Shown one piece after another: positions 4,191 to 13,727 of a stretch of DNA of 64,000 nucleotides (within the stretch, counting starts at the first letter, position 1; every line of letters begins with the position of its first letter). The notes beneath the pieces were generated by a model that did not search any database, was not told the DNA's origin, and saw only the letters and a list, made by a program, of their open reading frames with translations. This DNA is from Rhytidiadelphus loreus. Lineage: Eukaryota > Streptophyta > Bryopsida > Hypnales > Hylocomiaceae. A program made the position numbers and the translations under genes. The stretch is taken from contig OX344762.1 in assembly GCA_947034895.1 (NCBI GenBank), forward strand, positions 50,571,087-50,635,086, in the 5' to 3' direction.

Positions 4191-4872
4191 TTTATCGTCA
4201 AGTCGAGGATAAATGAATACGAGAAGTGAGCTGATCCCGGACACACTAATGTCACAATCCCATAGGAAAAAATACATTACATAATAATTAACATTCAGTG
4301 CCTACTTTTAAAAATAAAAAATATCCTCGACTCGACGATACTAATAATAAACCCTCCGGAACATGGAGGCGACAATTGAAAGAAAACAGGAAAACCAACA
4401 GACAAAAATCAAGATACAAAGACGATGATATTGTCGACTCAACAATACGTCAATCAAAACGATAATCTTATTCTAAAAATAAAATTACAGAAGAACCTGG
4501 ATGAACTATATGAAAATTCGGAACAAAAATGATGAAAACATGAACAAGAACAAATGTCTATGAGTAGACAATATAGTGAAACACATGAAATTTGTGTATC
4601 GTCGATTCGACAATATATAAGATCTACCAATAAACATACAATTACGAGACGACGAATAAAATTTTGTGATTTAGATATAAATAAAAAAGATAAAAGAATG
4701 AAAGGCTGTCACAAAACCAAGTACAATGGATATGAGATATTGAAGAAATGGAAATGAAATTGATACCACAGTACTCAAGCTTTGCAAAGAGTGTCTACCA
4801 TCTATACCGCAAAGGACATCGATTAAATATCGAAAATCTTTTTCTCTTCAATGTATCCTTGAGTTGACAATA
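4191..4872 (+). promoter_or_regulatory. Cluster of five palindromes upstream of the fusion locus
   Basis: Five of the 14 copies lie within 680 bp directly before the first coding ATG (4914), at about 4193, 4322, 4429, 4598 and 4854. This is the densest cluster in the window. An acceptor-like TATATCAG precedes GGTAACAACATGG at 4904-4919, so this stretch could be a 5' UTR intron, a promoter, or both. The regulatory reading is inference from position and density alone. Confidence 0.4.
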
Positions 4873-4913
4873 CATGAATCTGATGATGACACTGTGTATA
4901 TCAGGGTAACAAC

Positions 4914-6339
4914 ATGGCAACAGAGGATGGATACAGTTACTTGGTGACAGAGCGGCACATTGAGCCTTTTGTAAACCATAGTGACGACGAGGCCTTCCTG
5001 AAAGAAATGGAGGCGACCTATGGAAAACTTTGGCAGTTCAAAGATCACGTAAGTACATGGAGTTTTGGGGTCAGTAGGTGGAAGAACTATGTGTACCTAT
5101 TACCTAAGATACCGAGCCCAAAGGAAAACTCAATACCTTCCCTGGAATATGAAAGAGAAGGTCATGCTCATTGACGACTACCAGACGAACTACGTTATAA
5201 TTGTACTACGGGATGTAGACGACAACGGGATCCCAGGCAAGCACTGCCACTTCCTTGTTATTGACGTGAATTCATACCACGGGAAGTTTGACCTCGACAA
5301 CCTCATGACCTTCTTAGAAGGTTCAGAGATGGATTCCCTAAATGAAGAGTTCGAAAAATGTGGTTACGTTCCGTGGAGAAATGGTTCTGCAAAATCAAAT
5401 GCAAGTAGACTGTGTTTGATTTGGCAGACACTTGACCACTACGCATTAGCTAATATCGCCCCACTCCCAATAGTTGGAGGATATCAATCTCAACAGATGA
5501 GGAGATCATCAGATTGCGGGCTACATCCTCCCTCTAGTAGGACTGGGGATGCCAGTCGCGGAACAAGACCTGCACAAATCAGGTCGGATCCAAGGAAGTG
5601 TGATCTGCCCCAACAAGAGCAGGCGGAATCCAATAGGAAAAGGAGAAAATCTATCCCTCCAGGTGGAACACCAGGGAGTTCAGGGGTAATACTAACGACT
5701 GTTGAAGCTACTCCATCAACATCACAATCTCCCATGAAAGACCACGAGAAGTTTGCGACATATCAACGTGATTTCTGGTGTGATCACAAGTCTTGCTTCC
5801 TTTTTGAGCAGGAGATTGTGCAAGTCTATATCAAGCAGTGTATACTTGCGCGAGACCAATACATCATCCGCACACTGCAGAGAAACATAGTAGATTCCAT
5901 AAAGAATGAACTTGTGCAGCTTGGGCACATGAAGCAATGGCAAATTCTATGCCTCACTCCTGTTGACATAAAAAACGAGCTCCTAAAGAGGAAGCCGGTG
6001 ACGTGGGACGAAATTAAGTCTGGCAGATTCATAATTATTAACGGCCAGCATAGCGTGACTACATCAATGGAACTTCAGAAAGAAGGATGCGGCGAGGCCA
6101 GAAGGGTGGAGCTTCAAACTTGGGATGCATGGATTGTTTGGTCTCTAGATCCAAACAAGTTAAGAAACATCTCTAAGTTTTATAACTGCACCAATCATTT
6201 AGACCACGCCCAACCTACTTGGGGGAATCAGATAATAAGTTGCCGAAATATCTGGATTACCTGCAAGCGGGCCACCGACATACGAACGGAGGCATCAACC
6301 CGGAAGAATAAAGCTATGTACCACGTCGAGAACCATAAG
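4914..6339 (+). pseudogene. ParB-like N-terminal exon of the fusion locus
   Basis: The start is ATG at 4914 (MATEDGYSYLVTERHIEPFV...), after an acceptor-like CAG. The frame is open for about 50 codons, shifts by one at the GGGG run 5067-5070, then stays open without a stop to the GTAAC donor at 6340. Near residues 355-385 is WDEIKSGRFIIINGQHSVTT, which resembles the ParB/sulfiredoxin-fold signature (I..GQHR..A). It is followed by a Cys/His/Trp-rich stretch containing KFYNCTNHLDHAQPTWG. ParB family proteins bind palindromic DNA and, in some members, act as CTPases or nucleases. I cannot confirm the fold by eye, and the usual Arg after GQH is Ser here. I considered an intron at 5049 (GTAAGT) and rejected it because no acceptor restores phase, while removing one G restores the frame. 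Confidence 0.5.
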
Positions 6340-6568
6340 GTAACAAATTTCACTTCTCAGTATTGTCGACTCAATGATAATAGATTAATATATTTGAACT
6401 TAGTATTACCACGGTGAAAGCAGTGCTTTCAATTTGTAAATATTAAATAATGAAATATTCATCCCGGGCCAATTTTTTGGTTTCCTATCGTCGAGTCGAG
6501 GATACATACTTCATTTACTAGACCTGTATGTTTCAATTCTAATACTTTGGAATGTGGTTTTCATGTAG

Positions 6569-8355
6569 AGCTTCACGATGGCGGTTCTTGATCGGTACCA
6601 GAATCTTAATCCTGATAGGGAGGGTACGTGTGTGAAAAGTCTGAACGATCTGAAGAACGAGATTCAGATAATCACCTTACCCGACGAGCTCTTTGCGTTC
6701 TGGGAGAGATTCCTCACGAAGCACTCGGAGGGAGAGATAATTGAGCCTATCTCCGGGATGTAGTTCAAGAATATCAGAGGCTTCAAGAAGAAGACAATGT
6801 CTTTAAAGAGAGAATTTTTCAGGCATTGCGGTCATTTCACGGACAAGGACTATGGTGCATTTGTGCAGCACTTATTAGGCGACACGCCAGACCGCAAAGC
6901 AACATATCCTAAATTGTCTGTGTCTAAGACCAAAATTCTAGTCGCAGATAACATAGCGGCTGGAGACTGGATTGAGTGCAGGAAGCGAAAGAAAGTTGTA
7001 CTCCAGGACTTAGCAGCCATCAAACTTTCGCTCAATCTGACAGACAAGGGGGGGGGGGACGTCATTGACAAGACGTGGAAGTCATGGAAGGCGCGACACA
7101 GGTTCACATCCGCAACCTGGGACTTCCTCGTCTCTCACCCAAAGAACGAGTATTTCAAAAAAAGGCTTTAGAACGATGCGTGGAGCAAACGAGCCAAAGA
7201 TCTGGTGAAGAATTTTCCGGAGGTTCTACATATATTCACGCAGTTCATGAAACTGAAATATCGGCTTGACGAACCGTCAAGGGATATGCAAGTCAGGGGA
7301 ATCGATTTAGATGCAAGGGCACTGGTGACCAGCTCGAACTACCAGTACGTGCACCGCGACATCTACTTCGGTCTCTTGGATGTCAGAGAGGTTCCAAGAT
7401 CCAACCAAGCCATGGAAAAAATGGCCAATGTGGATCCTCACTTGAAGTTTCTCTCAGAGAAGCTTCAGCCGAAAATGACTGAGCCATTCGTGTGGCTCCT
7501 CATTCTACGCAGTAGGGCTGATGTCAAGGTTGCAGCAAAGTTTGTAGCCCAGAAGATGAAGGATTATGATTGTGTGCAATCGTCATACGTTCCAATCAAA
7601 GCTGAAATGCTCGACAACTGCACAAATCGTAATATTGCAGATGATGTTCCACTCCTCTTTCTGTTTAAGAAAGATAGCGAATTCGCATCTTCAGTTCGGG
7701 GATGTGTAAAGGCAGAATACAAAACCCCTGTCAACTGCCAATACTACTTTGAAGTTTCGAAGAACACGAAGGCCAAGTGGAGGATCAATGCAATAGAACT
7801 TAGAATGGAGTTCTACCTTGAAATCTTCTAGGATTTTGCGGCTCCCGGTGAAAACGTCCTTGGTATCTATTGTGGACCAAAATTTATGCTAGCGGCAAAG
7901 GTCAGTCAAATGCGAGGCCATTGTATAGTCGACTCGACGATAGCAGTATGAGTGTGATAAAATAGCCTATTGAAACAAGTTCTACGTATCTATGTTTTTG
8001 TCATCTCCATCGTTGTGGTCATTCTATTGTCGACTCGAGGATAGGATTTGTTGTCAATGGCATGATTATTAATTGGGTGTTCACATTGTATCAGATGTTC
8101 GGTGCATATTTCTATGGGTTCTGCGATAGGGACGATTCGAAGGGCTACCGAAAAATTGCATACCTAGTGGATAAAATGGACAAGAACGACTTCATGTTTT
8201 CGAACTTGCCGTATTCGTTGGCGTATGTGAAACCACCAAGTCGAGTGCCGTTGGTTGTGGACTCAAATTTGCCTCCGTTACCGCCCACAACATATGAATC
8301 CTCGTTCGATGTGCCCAGGACAGCAGAGAGCCAGAGAGAGAGCGAGGCGCAGTAG
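6569..8355 (+). pseudogene. Degenerate beta-class DNA methyltransferase-like exons
   Basis: Two exons, 6569-7900 and 8095-8355, are joined at AAG/ATG. Across the junction the protein reads PGENVLGIYCGPKFMLAAK then MFGAYFYGFCDRDDSKGY. This lines up with the AdoMet-binding motif I region of bacterial/phage N4/N6 methylases (PGD.VLD.F.GSGTT..AA...GR.Y.G.E). The acidic residue after VL is Gly and the GSGT core is changed. I see no DPPY/NPPY motif upstream, where a beta-class enzyme would carry it, so even an unbroken version may be non-catalytic. TAG codons interrupt at 6761, 7169, 7829 and 8353. The intron 7901-8094 holds two of the palindromes. Phage ParB-methylase fusions are known, which makes this pairing plausible. 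The methylase call is by motif only. Confidence 0.4.
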
Positions 8356-8420
8356 GTCCTCAAATGGTTGATGATCTTTGTGGAGTGAACATCAACCAAT
8401 TTGGGACAAATACCTTCCAG

Positions 8421-9803
8421 GTGTTCTTATGGATGAATCAGCCAGCGGGTGCTCATGAAATGACAAGAGAACCGACTGCAACTCAAGGGGAGCGAGCAAG
8501 AGTTGAGGGCGAAGAGCCGCAAGAGCCAGGAGCTCAGAGCCGAGAGCTGGAAGTAAGGGCGGAGCCAGGTAGAACACCGAAGGAAGAAGAAGGGGCACCG
8601 TCGGAGCCCGCAGCAGCACTCCAGGCCCCAACATGCGCACAGGCGGATCAAGTCGATTGGGATGCCATGGAGACGGACACCGAGTTCGAAGAACTCCTTC
8701 GCGTTCATTCAACGCTGAACCGGAGCAGGCCACTTCAAGCTCCGTTGCAGGACATGGGTACATGCGGCGCAACAGACGCAGTTATTAACGCTATGCCTGT
8801 GGAACGCTCGGCTTCTACACTCAAGAAGCGTTGGATTGCGCAGTGCTCAAAGATCAGCGACATCAGCGACGAGGATGAAATAGATCGTTCGCATTCCTCC
8901 GATGAAGACGATGTTGAAGGCATGCCCCCCAAACTTGACAAAAAATCAATCCTCCTATGAGACGGGAAGGTTAAGGTTGAAGGTGACTAGTGGACACACC
9001 AGGAGGAAGCCCAAAAGCGTAGGATACTGAGGCAATAGGCGAGGGAAGAGACAGATAGACAACTTGTTGAGGCCGTCGCTTGCAGTCAAGCGGCCAATGC
9101 CAAAATATCTATGGTGCAGCATGAGTCCAATGCGAAGATCTCTTCCCTCGAGGATTAGTTGAAAAATTTGGTTGCCGCCATTCAATCTCAATCAGGCGGA
9201 TCGCTAATCCTACCTTCGCCGATTCCCGAGGCCCCACCACAACAGCAACCGGTGACCACCTCCGACTAGAATGACCTAGACAAAGTCCAGGAATTGGAAT
9301 CTGGATTGCCGGATCCTCGACTCGAGGATAAGGTTGATATTACCTCTCCCTCCCCTGTGGATGTGAATGCAATCCCCTAGGGTTCCCAAGTGGATAAGGT
9401 GCCATCCTCGGACCAAGCAGTCTCAGATGTGATACCTGAGACACAAAGAGTCTCTCCTTTAAGAGACCTTCCCGATGGGGATGAGAGCCGTCGTCGAGTT
9501 GACAATAATGTCCAAGGGTCGGCGCAACCTAATTCTGTTGCCGAGGTAGGCATTGAGTCTCATTGATCTACCAGGCCCAATCCCTTGACAATTACGCCCA
9601 GGCGCTTACTGCTGGAATCACCTGCATCTTTAGAAAAGAAGGTCAATTACAGCTTCAGTGAGGACGACGTCGGTGAAGGTGTTGGAAAACAGGAAGATGT
9701 CGGGGATGATGTGGGCGCGAAGGAGGGCGTCGAGGGAGATTTGGAACCGACACCCGTTGGGCAGCAGGTGGAGAATGATCCGCACAAGGTAGATTCATCA
9801 CAG
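8421..9803 (+). pseudogene. Acidic, Glu/Gln/Pro-rich linker exon of the fusion locus
   Basis: A single frame of 461 codons runs from an acceptor CCTTCCAG to a donor CAG/GTACAA. It is broken by TGA (8958, 9564) and TAG (8988, 9036, 9156, 9267, 9378). The composition is low-complexity: Glu-, Ala-, Pro- and Ser-rich, with an SDEDEIDRSHSSDEDD acidic block and a probable short coiled coil around 9000-9180. No domain is recognised. Two palindromes lie in the exon; the one at 9312 encodes DPRLEDK. Several stops fall where Gln, Arg or Trp would suit the local composition. Confidence 0.5.
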
Positions 9804-10333
9804 GTACAACCATCAGATCCTTACAATTTTGATTGACTCTCATATACGCAAAGTTATGGATGATTGATTTGTTCTGTTAGAGACAACGGAATTCATTTCG
9901 TAATCTGAAATTGCATTCGGATGCATGATGCTTGACAGGATGGTGTGGCCACTCCTTGATTGCATGCGCGTGGCGGCAAATCCATCTGTGTCTTCAATGC
10001 GTGTAGTCCAGTGCACCATAGATATGAGTGTATAGTTTTGGCGGCTGTAGATGTAAACAAAAAACATGTATGTAATATATTTCACTTGTAAATGAAGTAT
10101 ATCTGTTGAAATTGCAAAAACGGGCTCAAAAGTCTAATTGTCTTTTGCTTTCCATGTTTTTTTGCTCAACTCAAAAAACATAAAAGCGTGCATCGTTCGC
10201 TGCCTATGAAAGCACACCCTAACGGGAGCAAGCAAACGATTAGTGGATTTCAGTGTTCCCTCCCGTTTTCTAGCTCACATGATTTTGCATTCAAACAGGT
10301 AACTCTATTTCTATGTTGTCTTGACTTGATCAG

Positions 10334-11128
10334 GTAGAATCGAAGGACGAGAGAGAGGTCGTCCCAAGGAATGTAGCGCCTCTAGTGCCCCCACCGCGGA
10401 GGAAGTGGCTGAACATTGTCTTCGACTTGAATGGGGTGCTCTGCCAAGTCGCCACCAGGGCGTATGGCACAAATGGAAAATTCCAACCCTACCAACTCGA
10501 AGACAAAGTTCTCTGCCATAGAACCCCCACGATCGTTGGACCCAAGGCTGTATTCACTCGACAGAATTTAGAGAGTTTCCTGCGAGAGGTTTCCAACATC
10601 GAACTGGGTACTAGTATGGAGCGCCATGTTCAAGTCCAACACGGAACCCATTGCTGGACACCTGTTCAGCAGAGGCAGGGCCCCCTATGATGTGTTGAGC
10701 CAAGATCAATGCAAAAGAATAGAGGTCTCTCCTGGGAATTTTCTTCATTTTGGCACAAAGGGTGTCTTCATGAAGGTTCTGTCCGAGACCTTGTTCATGA
10801 ATCCCAGCGGAGACACGTCTTTCACTGTGGACAACAACCTCCTCGTCGATGACTTCCCGGAGAAGGGGATTTGTAATGAGAGGGGAAACACCGTGATTCT
10901 CGAAACTTGGAGTCACGCCAAGCGGAGGGACAATTCCTCTTGGGAGACAACCTGCCGTGGCTTCGGCGTCTCATCTCGGACTGCCAACCGGGGAGACTGC
11001 GAGAGTACGTAGAGGCCAACCGGATTGGGCTCGAACCCCTGGTAGCTAGGGACTACAATCACACCCGAATTGGAGATGCCATGAGGGAATCCGCAAATAA
11101 CGTGGGAGTCCGTTACGAACTGTCGGCA
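10334..11128 (+). pseudogene. FCP1/NLI-IF-like HAD phosphatase domain, frameshifted
   Basis: The first part, KWLNIVFDLNGVLCQVATRA, matches the opening of the plant FCP1-homology/HAD family, where the canonical DxDG(T/V) motif here reads DLNGV: the second catalytic Asp is Asn. Later come WSAMFKSNTEP and a TVDNNLLVDDFPEKGICNE stretch resembling HAD motifs II and III, with a Lys/Asp pair conserved in plant FCP1-like proteins. The frame shifts by one base near 10610 and returns near 10930. The two shifts compensate, so the exon keeps a length divisible by three. FCP1-like enzymes dephosphorylate Ser/Thr residues; with Asn in place of Asp, activity is doubtful. The exon ends best at GCA/GTAAAT (11128). 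Confidence 0.6.
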
Positions 11129-11414
11129 GTAAATTTAGTCATTGGGAGAGGCCGTCATAGGACGTAGGGTAACGCGGTTGAACCCACGTTCGTAGAACAA
11201 TAATAACATTTTGTATTCTATAATCTTGTATGCTATGATCTTCTGTAAATAATATATTCAGTTTGGACTTAGCTTTTCTTTATCTTTGCATTTCTGCTCC
11301 GCTTGTTTCTTTCTGTGGTTTTCCTTTCCGAATTATAGTTCTCTTGCATCTCTTCTCGTCATTCTTTTCGTGGAATTCGCATGGTGTTCTCTTGTAATTC
11401 AGTCCTTCCTGCAG

Positions 11415-12326
11415 GTTGGAGCTCGTAGTCTAAGTCTACAGACACCCAAGGGTAGGCTTACTAGGAGCTTGCTTTCAAGGTCCAAAAAGTTGCTCTCCAT
11501 TGGCTCAGAATCTGCCGGAGGGAGCTGCGGTCCTGCACCGGTGTCTAAATTGTACATGCTACGCTCAGCCGCGGACGCGGCGTTGGCAGCCATAGACTAC
11601 CCCAAGGGAGACATTGAAGACGGCGTCGTCGACAGTCCCCCAAGTCGAGGGCTGGGGCGGATGCCCATCTGCTCGCCGTCCCCGCTGAAGAGATCATCGT
11701 CGACTCGAGGAGGGTCATTCTCATCGGCTTCTTGGGCAGACACTACAACGAACAAAAAATTGGACCTGTTCGTCGGTGGAACTTCATGGCATCCTCGACT
11801 CGAAGATAGTATCCTACCTTCGGAAGTGGCTCCATCTGTCATCTTAAATGACTTGAAACGGATGTCATCTTCCTATGGGTATACAAAGAGTGAACAAGTT
11901 GGTCCGTCATTTAAACTTGGATTGCCTTGGTTCGAGGACAACCACTTGCCCTCGGTGTCTGTGGGAACCAAGAGGCCGCTTTCCAGCGACTCCCTTTTCC
12001 GTCAGCGAATTATTAGGGACCAAAGGCGCTCCGTAGACACCACATCCACTAGAACTGGACCGCCTTATACCAACAATGTGAACACGTCAATGCCGACACT
12101 GACTCTAGATGGGACAAGATCACTTTCCGCTTTGGATGTTCCACGAAGCTTACACAATTGTAAGCGAAAGGGTATTGGTTCGCAGAGTCTAGGCCTAGGT
12201 GTCTCGATGGACAGCGGAAGCAGGCTCCATCGTCACTCTCGACGCGACGATATCTTTAAGGAACTAGCAAAACTAAAAGTGTTAGAGGCGGCAAAGTCCA
12301 ATGGCGTGACTCACAACAATGCCTAA
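11415..12326 (+). CDS. Ser/Arg-rich C-terminal exon of the fusion locus (uninterrupted)
   Basis: Open for 303 codons from the acceptor TTCCTGCAG to TAA at 12324, without a stop or shift, unlike the preceding exons. It begins VGARSLSLQTPKGRLTRSLL, has many SRS/RRS words and ends in a short charged helix (DDIFKELAKLKVLEAAKS). No known domain is seen. Three palindromes lie inside it in frame, giving SSSTRGG, HPRLEDS and HSRRDDI; the word PRLED also appears at the 9312 copy. It could instead be the last exon of a separate gene that starts in the FCP1-like exon. Confidence 0.45.
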   Translation, partial: VGARSLSLQTPKGRLTRSLLSRSKKLLSIGSESAGGSCGPAPVSKLYMLRSAADAALAAIDYPKGDIEDGVVDSPPSRGLGRMPICSPSPLKRSSSTRGGSFSSASWADTTTNKKLDLFVGGTSWHPRLEDSILPSEVAPSVILNDLKRMSSSYGYTKSEQVGPSFKLGLPWFEDNHLPSVSVGTKRPLSSDSLFRQRIIRDQRRSVDTTSTRTGPPYTNNVNTSMPTLTLDGTRSLSALDVPRSLHNCKRKGIGSQSLGLGVSMDSGSRLHRHSRRDDIFKELAKLKVLEAAKSNGVTHNNA

Positions 12327-13727
12327 GCAAGCGGGAAATGTTTCTAAGGCCATGGGCTGCTCAATCTCTATTACTATTAATAGAATAGTTGTATATAGTG
12401 CGTATAAAAAAGTACAGTGCTTCATGTACAGTAAGCCTCTCCGATTCTAAGCAAGTTCAATAGATTGAACATTTAGTCATTCATACACTTCAGGTGGCAT
12501 TTGGAATAGCCACAGCTTGCATATTTTTAGGGGTTTTGTATCCGGCTTACAAAATGTAAATGGTCTTGCTTTTCTATACATTGGTTCATTTTGGGCGCAC
12601 CATATATGTGTGAAAATGATTTCTGTCTTTGTATTCGTCGGTGTGCTAGTACCCGCTGGTTCTAATTTCTAAGTTGTTTTGAACGTGCGCTCCAAAAATC
12701 TCTATGGTTGATGTCAATTACGCTACATTTATCGTTGAGTTCAACAACTACTACTGAGAGGAGCTTCGCATTCCATTTCTCAAAGTCTCAAAGTCTCAAA
12801 GTGACCACTTTGTATCAAAATAACGAATAAGGCCTTTTTGAGTGAAAATCCGCTTGAACAAAGTGCACACAATGTCAAAGAAATGGAACTATCTAAATCA
12901 CAAAGTGCCATGGTGTCGTACGCGCAATCTAAGCGTAAATATCTTTACAACACAAATATGTTGTAAGACAACTCAAAATGTTGTCCTAGAGGATTTGAAG
13001 ATGTTGTCACAAACTTCAGTATCTGGATTTCCTTGTTTCCAAAGGCTAAGAACAATCCGTCCACTTCTTTCTCTCTCTTTTGGCTCCAACTACTAACCGG
13101 ATTCCAATCCGGATCCAGTCTCACCTTGTTTCTGGATACAACTTCACTTAGTGTTGGTTTTAGTTACCTCTATTTTATCCTCAAAGGATCCACTCTCGAT
13201 CTTTAGAAGGGTAGGGACTTCACCACTTCTAGTTCTTAACTATTCTCTACCCTCTCAACACAAAACAAACAAGCACAACCCAAGAATTACAGATGTACCC
13301 AGGGAAAGAAATGACACCCTCACAACTTTCCAAATAAACAGAAAGCAAGTCACTTAGAACACCTTAGGTCCCTGTACTACAACGATAGATCTAAAGACAT
13401 TTGGAACGAAGAGGAGACTGCTTCTAAGTATCTAGATTGATGTGGAGGTTGGCAGACCTTTCGATATTTAGGACATTTCCTAGGACGGTTGCTTAATTCC
13501 GCACAGAACCACTCCTAGATTTCGGACCCGCATCCACACCACTCTTGGGTGCTACAAAATTACCATTCCGGTAATTTAAAGGCACCATGCACAAATCCTC
13601 CCTCACGAATCTAAATCTCTCCACAGAGTCCTTACTCTGAACTGATTACTATAGACATGGATTCTTCCGTAATCGTCCCCTCTCACATACATACGATAAC
13701 ACTCATGAGCACAAAATAAACAAGAAC
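12327..13727. other. Downstream flank, no gene seen
   Basis: Probably includes the 3' end of the fusion locus (AT-rich, about 12330-12620), then ordinary intergenic DNA. No palindrome copies occur here and I found no inverted repeat partner of the left flank near 4.0-4.2 kb, so the right boundary of the locus is undefined. Confidence 0.4.

Follow-up and report, generated by a model that had tools for sequence, protein, structure and literature searches.

The subject of this report is a set of 19-bp palindromes in a 64,000-nucleotide stretch of the genome of the moss Rhytidiadelphus loreus (C2:50571087-50635086; from here on, the window), where 14 of these nearly symmetrical sites lie along a gene that we refer to as gene 1. 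The palindromes are recognition-site-like repeats built into a large DNA transposon with terminal inverted repeats (TIRs), two divergent genes (gene 1 and its partner, gene 2) and a 4-bp target-site duplication (TSD), and the window holds part of one broken copy of this element. The features of this copy are listed below, with the support recorded for them in brackets (matches to the palindrome pattern, scores with a position matrix, or comparison with other copies).

4193-4211, 4322-4340, 4429-4447, 4597-4615 and 4854-4872, plus strand: five clustered palindromes ahead of gene 1 (pattern, matrix, copy comparison)
4914-6339, plus strand: first coding block of gene 1 (ATG side, then predicted ParB-like domain with motif IINGQHS); frame break near 5075-5130
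6361-6379, plus strand: palindrome in intron 1, ~21 nt past the donor (pattern, matrix, copy comparison)
6486-6504, plus strand: palindrome in intron 1, ~64 nt ahead of the acceptor (pattern, matrix, copy comparison)
6569-7900, plus strand: exon 3 of gene 1, helical region and predicted amino-methyltransferase fold that lacks DPPY/W; in-frame TAG at three places
7924-7942, plus strand: palindrome in intron 2, ~23 nt past the donor (pattern, matrix, copy comparison)
8025-8043, plus strand: palindrome in intron 2, ~50 nt ahead of the acceptor (pattern, matrix, copy comparison)
8095-9803, plus strand: exon 4 of gene 1, short conserved block and acidic region that looks low in complexity; frame broken near 8355, several stops
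9312-9330, plus strand: palindrome within exon 4, in-frame reading DPRLED (pattern, copy comparison)
9489-9507, plus strand: palindrome within exon 4, in-frame reading RRRVDN (pattern, copy comparison)
10331-11168, plus strand: exon 5 of gene 1, with frame breaks near 10610-10630 and 10940; predicted NLI-interacting-factor-like (HAD) phosphatase domain with motif DLNGVL
11415-12326, plus strand: last exon of gene 1 (stretches 43-70% identical in other copies)
11695-11713, plus strand: last-exon palindrome with 3 mismatches (pattern, matrix)
11790-11808, plus strand: last-exon palindrome, 95 bp beyond the 11695 site (pattern, copy comparison)
12234-12252, plus strand: last-exon palindrome with 3 mismatches, weakest of the 14 (pattern, matrix)
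12809-12836, minus strand: right TIR, with the element end at 12836 (shared ends, genome TIR count)

A search of the window for TATYSTCGASTCGASRATA with up to three mismatches returns 14 matches, all between 4193 and 12252, where 0.06 would be expected from 100 shuffled sequences (largest count, 1). A symmetrised position matrix scores these sites at 20.8-31.0 and the next-best place in the 64 kb at 8.4, the matrix being derived from the same 14 sites. The pattern count and the matrix scan bear out an earlier account of this DNA made from its letters alone (the sequence-only reading), which had described 14 near-symmetrical sites in 8 kb, and its description of them as spread over upstream DNA, introns and exons and often paired was likewise correct. 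The 95-bp spacing of the last-exon pair recurs in two other copies, at loci L022 and L029. The five exonic palindromes include four that share a single reading frame (9312, DPRLED; 9489, RRRVDN; 11790, HPRLED; 12234, HSRRDD), and site and peptide may therefore be jointly constrained. For CpG, the observed/expected ratio stands at 1.23 for the upstream cluster and 0.82 for gene 1, with 0.67 to the left of the element and 0.56 to its right, a contrast that supports no conclusion because the sites themselves contain CpG.

The sequence-only reading had also called the palindromes private and confined to one locus, which holds within the window and fails genome-wide. In a scan of 407 Mb (489 contigs), the pattern with up to two mismatches was matched 4833 times, as compared to 18 times for the reversed-pattern control; the family is therefore large, and the notion of a one-locus motif is ruled out. 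Co-occurrence was examined at 27 loci around exact-match sites, among the matches listed, in the first 41.2 Mb of contig C1. All 27 proved to be parts of one transposon family, with gene-1 exons at 11 and gene 2 at 14, one of these loci having both. The sequence-only reading had asked whether sites cluster at loci that encode the same fusion protein; in this part of the genome they cluster in one element family. Among the smaller family members are L018 (4768-5144), a derivative 377 bp long that has TIRs at its ends, is flanked by the TSD AATA and carries three identical palindromes at 122-bp spacing; L011, a gene-2 promoter cluster without gene 2 that is 95% identical to L025 across 840 bp; and L033, where a stub of gene 1, seen as one match of 25 residues (E 6e-4), lies next to a site cluster in an element that carries gene 2. 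In viral contigs the exact pattern was matched in one contig, which we hold to be chance, and a scan of these contigs for gene-1 exon 2 found none.

The copies share the terminal repeat AAGGCC(T/A)TATTC(G/A)TTAAATTGAGACAAA, which lies at 12836 in the window, and the 28-bp TIR pattern with up to three mismatches occurs 801 times in the genome (394 plus, 407 minus) and not at all in controls. The exact TIR matches listed form at least 17 facing pairs, of which 11 span 17.5-18.4 kb, four ~23 kb, one 11.9 kb and one 43.2 kb. Gene 1 is enclosed by 15 of these 17 pairs (0.09 expected, from 103 scored copies among 991 candidates), the 11.9-kb and 43.2-kb pairs being without a scored match, and gene 2 by all 17 (48 scored copies among 2168 candidates). 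The two genes are divergent in every one of the 15 pairs that contain both, and the end of gene 2 lies 476-500 bp from one TIR end in 16 of the 17. An exact 4-bp TSD flanks 12 of 14 copies (4/4 by eye, 8/10 scripted), and the other two match at three of four bases. Within elements, no sites were seen inside gene 2 or at the element ends, and none occur over ~3.5 kb at the gene-2 end of elements A and B, where that end was read. A ~26.5-kb interval apparently splits a gene-1 copy within exon 2 at C1:41118000-41158400 (L026, L027), and ~5.3 kb separates two parts of the last exon in the copy at C1:32391613-32415326. At L016:1-1008 there is an open frame whose match to a SWIM zinc finger is weak (E 0.088), perhaps the remnant of another transposon adjoining the element. 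No report of this element was found in the open-licence PMC literature, as searched by titles and abstract beginnings for moss transposons, ParB, anti-silencing palindromes and Sola-type superfamilies.

The window copy is a broken, left-truncated member of the family. Its gene 1 is interrupted by frame changes and stops, and its gene 2, just to the left of the window on the minus strand (C2:50566048-50568513, L030:4962-7427), is truncated, with a match that stops at about residue 834. Six palindromes lie upstream of gene 2 (L030:7546-8241), outside the window by 1.8-2.5 kb on its left side; they are followed by ~6 kb without sites before the five that precede gene 1, and 584 bp separate the last site of the copy from the end of the element. 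Eight of the ten in-frame stops in exons 3 and 4 (window 6569-9803) are TAG, as C-to-T changes at CAG (CHG) would produce.

Gene 1 is predicted to encode a fusion protein that combines a ParB-like domain and a methyltransferase lacking its catalytic motif (both predicted folds) with a NIF-type phosphatase (a Pfam match). A ParB/Srx N-domain fold is predicted for the first of these parts, with ParB-type entries in all of the top 13 VIA-align rows, and the NGQHS columns are invariant across 30 sequences. For exon 3 the predicted fold is that of a Rossmann-type amino-methyltransferase (N6A/N4C). The catalytic motif of such enzymes is DPPY/W, and none of 33 aligned sequences has it where it would be expected, past the first strand. 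Exon 5 matches PF03031 (E 5.7e-5; 23.3 bits vs a cut-off of 21.8) as a piece joined across two frame breaks, and the second Asp of the motif of NIF-type phosphatases, DxDx(T/V), reads Asn in gene 1 (DLNGVL). Pfam scans of both genes found no helix-turn-helix (HTH) or ParA match, exon 3 residues 1-235 not having been searched alone, and PDB sequence searches with exon 2 and with an exon-3 profile returned nothing relevant. One homolog, P0032, is filed under an uncultured cyanobacterium record and has the palindrome peptide at its end; this record is perhaps misfiled plant DNA.

The partner gene, gene 2, encodes ~950 amino acids with a DUF7869 domain (E 7.5e-46). In an alignment of six copies, an Asp, a second Asp (LDNASG) and, 39 residues on, a Glu (GHTHED) form a pattern that by eye reads D...D-38-E, with Asn in place of the first Asp in one of the six. 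We take gene 2 for a putative DDE transposase. PDB searches with gene 2 and its profile gave nothing relevant, and no paper on DUF7869 was found in the open-licence PMC literature.

The positions of the palindromes are maintained between copies of gene 1, of which eight cover both introns and seven had their upstream DNA fetched. When sites are tallied at a matrix score of at least 13, intron 1 has two in 6/8 copies (L017 has one and L029 three), intron 2 has two in 7/8 (L029 again has three) and the exon 4/intron 3 region has two in 8/8 (L026 by position). Upstream of gene 1 there are 4-13 sites in the seven copies, and coding exons 1-3 have a single borderline site in one of the eight, L017; six copies fetched nearly whole have 12-28 sites each along gene 1. 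At seven orthologous positions outside the last exon, sites are 0.75-0.84 identical and their 25-bp flanks 0.28-0.40 (6-7 copies, leaving aside L041, L043 and the near-duplicate L026), the choice of sites by motif inflating site identity and not the presence of a site at each place. In the last exon (3-4 copies) the corresponding values are 72-81% for sites and 52-69% for flanks. The expectation that sites would be conserved against drifting flanks was realized, and since flank identity is near random while the sites persist, passive copying is insufficient as an explanation. A translated form of the palindrome is found in 16 of 94 homolog proteins (twice in P0001), as compared to 0.06 in shuffled proteins (largest, 1) and none for reversed peptides; in diverged homologs, gene calls run on past the exon into presumed intron. 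One extra peptide match (P0014, residue 27) is clearly outside any intron tail, and broader peptide sets reach 28/94, including accidental matches inside coding parts. Between the element-bound loci and the conservation of sites against drifting flanks, there is good support for the proposal that the sites were selected or copied for recognition, and likewise for the conclusion that they are functional.

Two lineages of the element differ in the lettering of the half-site. In lineage I, the window type (125 sites), half-site position 5 is mostly G, C or A and position 9 is nearly always A; in lineage II (156 sites), position 5 is C or T in 306/312 half-sites, position 9 is A or G with some T and C, and several loci have palindrome arrays with a period of ~40. 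Loci were divided by gene similarity after the half-site letters had been seen, with L018 excluded, and the contrast in dialect is therefore not a blind test. Arrays with a 37-bp period lie between exon 5 and the last exon in two lineage-II copies, at L014:8678-8918 and L017 9075-9204 (gene orientation). The sequence-only reading had described half-site differences that look like correlated exchanges, and for the window's lineage this was not borne out: at position 5 the arms are symmetric in 36% of the 125 sites vs 34% in within-locus permutations, 676 of 2000 of which reach the observed value. Symmetry in lineage I thus rests on the fixed positions only. In lineage II the arms are correlated at position 5 (72% vs 60%, 0/2000 permutations) and anti-correlated at positions 9/11 (31% vs 42%).

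We consider it somewhat probable that the palindromes are cis sites of a TIR transposon that encodes their likeliest binder, and that the gene-1 protein keeps copies of the element expressed, much as VANC does for the VANDAL transposons of Arabidopsis. The gene-1 product would bind the 19-bp palindrome as a dimer, which is plausible, and would occupy sites along its own gene and at the gene-2 promoter; this occupancy might keep copies expressed through anti-silencing or transcriptional activation, and the phosphatase domain, once recruited, may act on the polymerase tail. We are led to this interpretation by the placement of the sites, the VANC precedent, the ParB-parS systems and the known ParB-methylase fusion. 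That sites precede both genes and recur within gene 1, in introns as well as exons, fits a marker of the element's own transcription units better than an end-binder. The sequence-only reading had anticipated recognition sites for the encoded protein; the partner gene, the mobile element and the uncorrelated arms were unforeseen.

Several observations weigh against this assignment. The co-occurrence covers 27 loci of one contig and not the whole genome, the arms of the palindrome do not covary in the window's lineage, and a 4-bp TSD together with DUF7869 does not by itself prove a DDE transposase. The CTP motifs of ParB proteins are GERRxRA and ENxQR, and these canonical forms are absent from gene 1, where the place (as located by eye) reads NGQHSITAS and YNSTNHLDHAQP in P0001. 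Gene 1 yielded no positive identification of a DNA-binding domain, exon 3 residues 1-235 being barely covered, and this last point, together with the sites in the promoters of both genes, would also suit a host DNA-binding factor whose motif the element has borrowed. We regard such a host factor as quite unlikely, since all 27 examined loci lie within the element with no host target among them, and since the half-site alphabet shifts with element lineage, which suggests co-evolution with an element protein.

Other roles for the sites can be imagined within the element itself. The gene-1 protein might be a repressor or copy-number control that acts at both promoters and limits transposition; the site clusters directly upstream of both divergent genes are in the classic place for operators, but the intron and exon sites, and the 13 upstream plus seven intron-4 sites of L014 in lineage II, exceed what operators need, and autoregulation appears unlikely to us. 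Sites of the subterminal type, like the TNPA sites of En/Spm, might be bound by the gene-2 transposase or by the gene-1 protein as an accessory factor in transposition, as the retention of three sites in the 377-bp L018 would allow; however, the palindromes are not subterminal, given the ~3.5-kb site-free interval at the gene-2 end of elements A and B and the 584 bp that follow the last site of the window copy, and this role is distinctly improbable. We give least credence, and very little, to a structural explanation by which the palindromes form hairpins or cruciforms that aid splicing or act as points of recombination, or else are junk copied with the element. Introns 1 and 2 of the window copy each have a site near the donor and another 50-64 nt before the acceptor, and the position-5 correlation in lineage II is compatible with pairing, but positions 5 and 15 in lineage I pair no more than permutations do, and the sites persist between near-random flanks. 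The independence of the arms in lineage I speaks against a hairpin and fits a dimeric protein that tolerates variation at position 5; RNA or cruciform hairpins were rejected for the window's lineage. A bolder form of protein recognition, which we hold to be about as unlikely as autoregulation, is a ParB-parS-like system in a eukaryotic transposon: a nucleotide-gated dimeric clamp would load at the palindromes and spread, the dead methyltransferase fold would read DNA or its methylation, a C-terminal domain (CTD)-type phosphatase would be the effector, and the whole might coat and protect the ~18 kb from silencing or pair the copies.

If the palindromes do serve as cis sites for the gene-1 protein, then transposon anti-silencing or self-recognition would have arisen on more than one occasion, built in this case of ParB, methyltransferase and phosphatase components, and ParB-type DNA marking would extend to eukaryotic mobile DNA. 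The element would represent a second, independent system for the co-evolution of a protein with thousands of dispersed sites, with two natural dialects in one genome, and it may offer a new sequence-specific tool for altering chromatin states.

Among known systems, Sola, Chapaev and Ginger are eukaryotic TIR transposons with a 4-bp TSD, and the moss element resembles them in its TIRs, its 4-bp TSD and a transposase-like gene in which a D...D-38-E pattern can be read by eye. VANDAL elements are of the MULE type, and MULEs have a 9-bp TSD; the moss element has neither a MULE transposase nor a duplication of that length, its TSD being 4 bp and its partner gene encoding DUF7869. Like the ParB-parS, Noc and KorB systems, it combines a ParB N-domain fold with palindromic sites clustered near the gene for the protein. 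It differs from these CTP-dependent clamps of bacteria and plasmids in having NGQHS in place of a GERR-type motif, in being a eukaryotic-type transposon with introns, and in that Pfam scans found no ParA-like partner or HTH. ParB itself loads on palindromic parS and spreads with CTP (PMC7053999, among others). The union of a ParB/Srx-type domain with an adenine-methyltransferase-type fold in one protein is shared with bacterial and phage ParB-methylase fusions, of which Bce_0392 is a bacterial example (PMC5512222). The closest precedent is VANC of Arabidopsis (PMC5735166, with a follow-up study in PMC10398659). PMC5735166 describes motifs that lie within the element encoding VANC, both in upstream regions and in introns, along with growth by tandem repetition and lineage-specific types, all of which have counterparts here. 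The VANC motif is reported there as 9 bp (YAGTATTAY) and non-coding, whereas the moss motif is a 19-bp palindrome that also occupies exons. Unlike VANDAL, the moss element has a ParB-like/methyltransferase-like/phosphatase fusion and a DUF7869 partner, and the binding of sites by the element's own protein, which was demonstrated for VANC, is here proposed.

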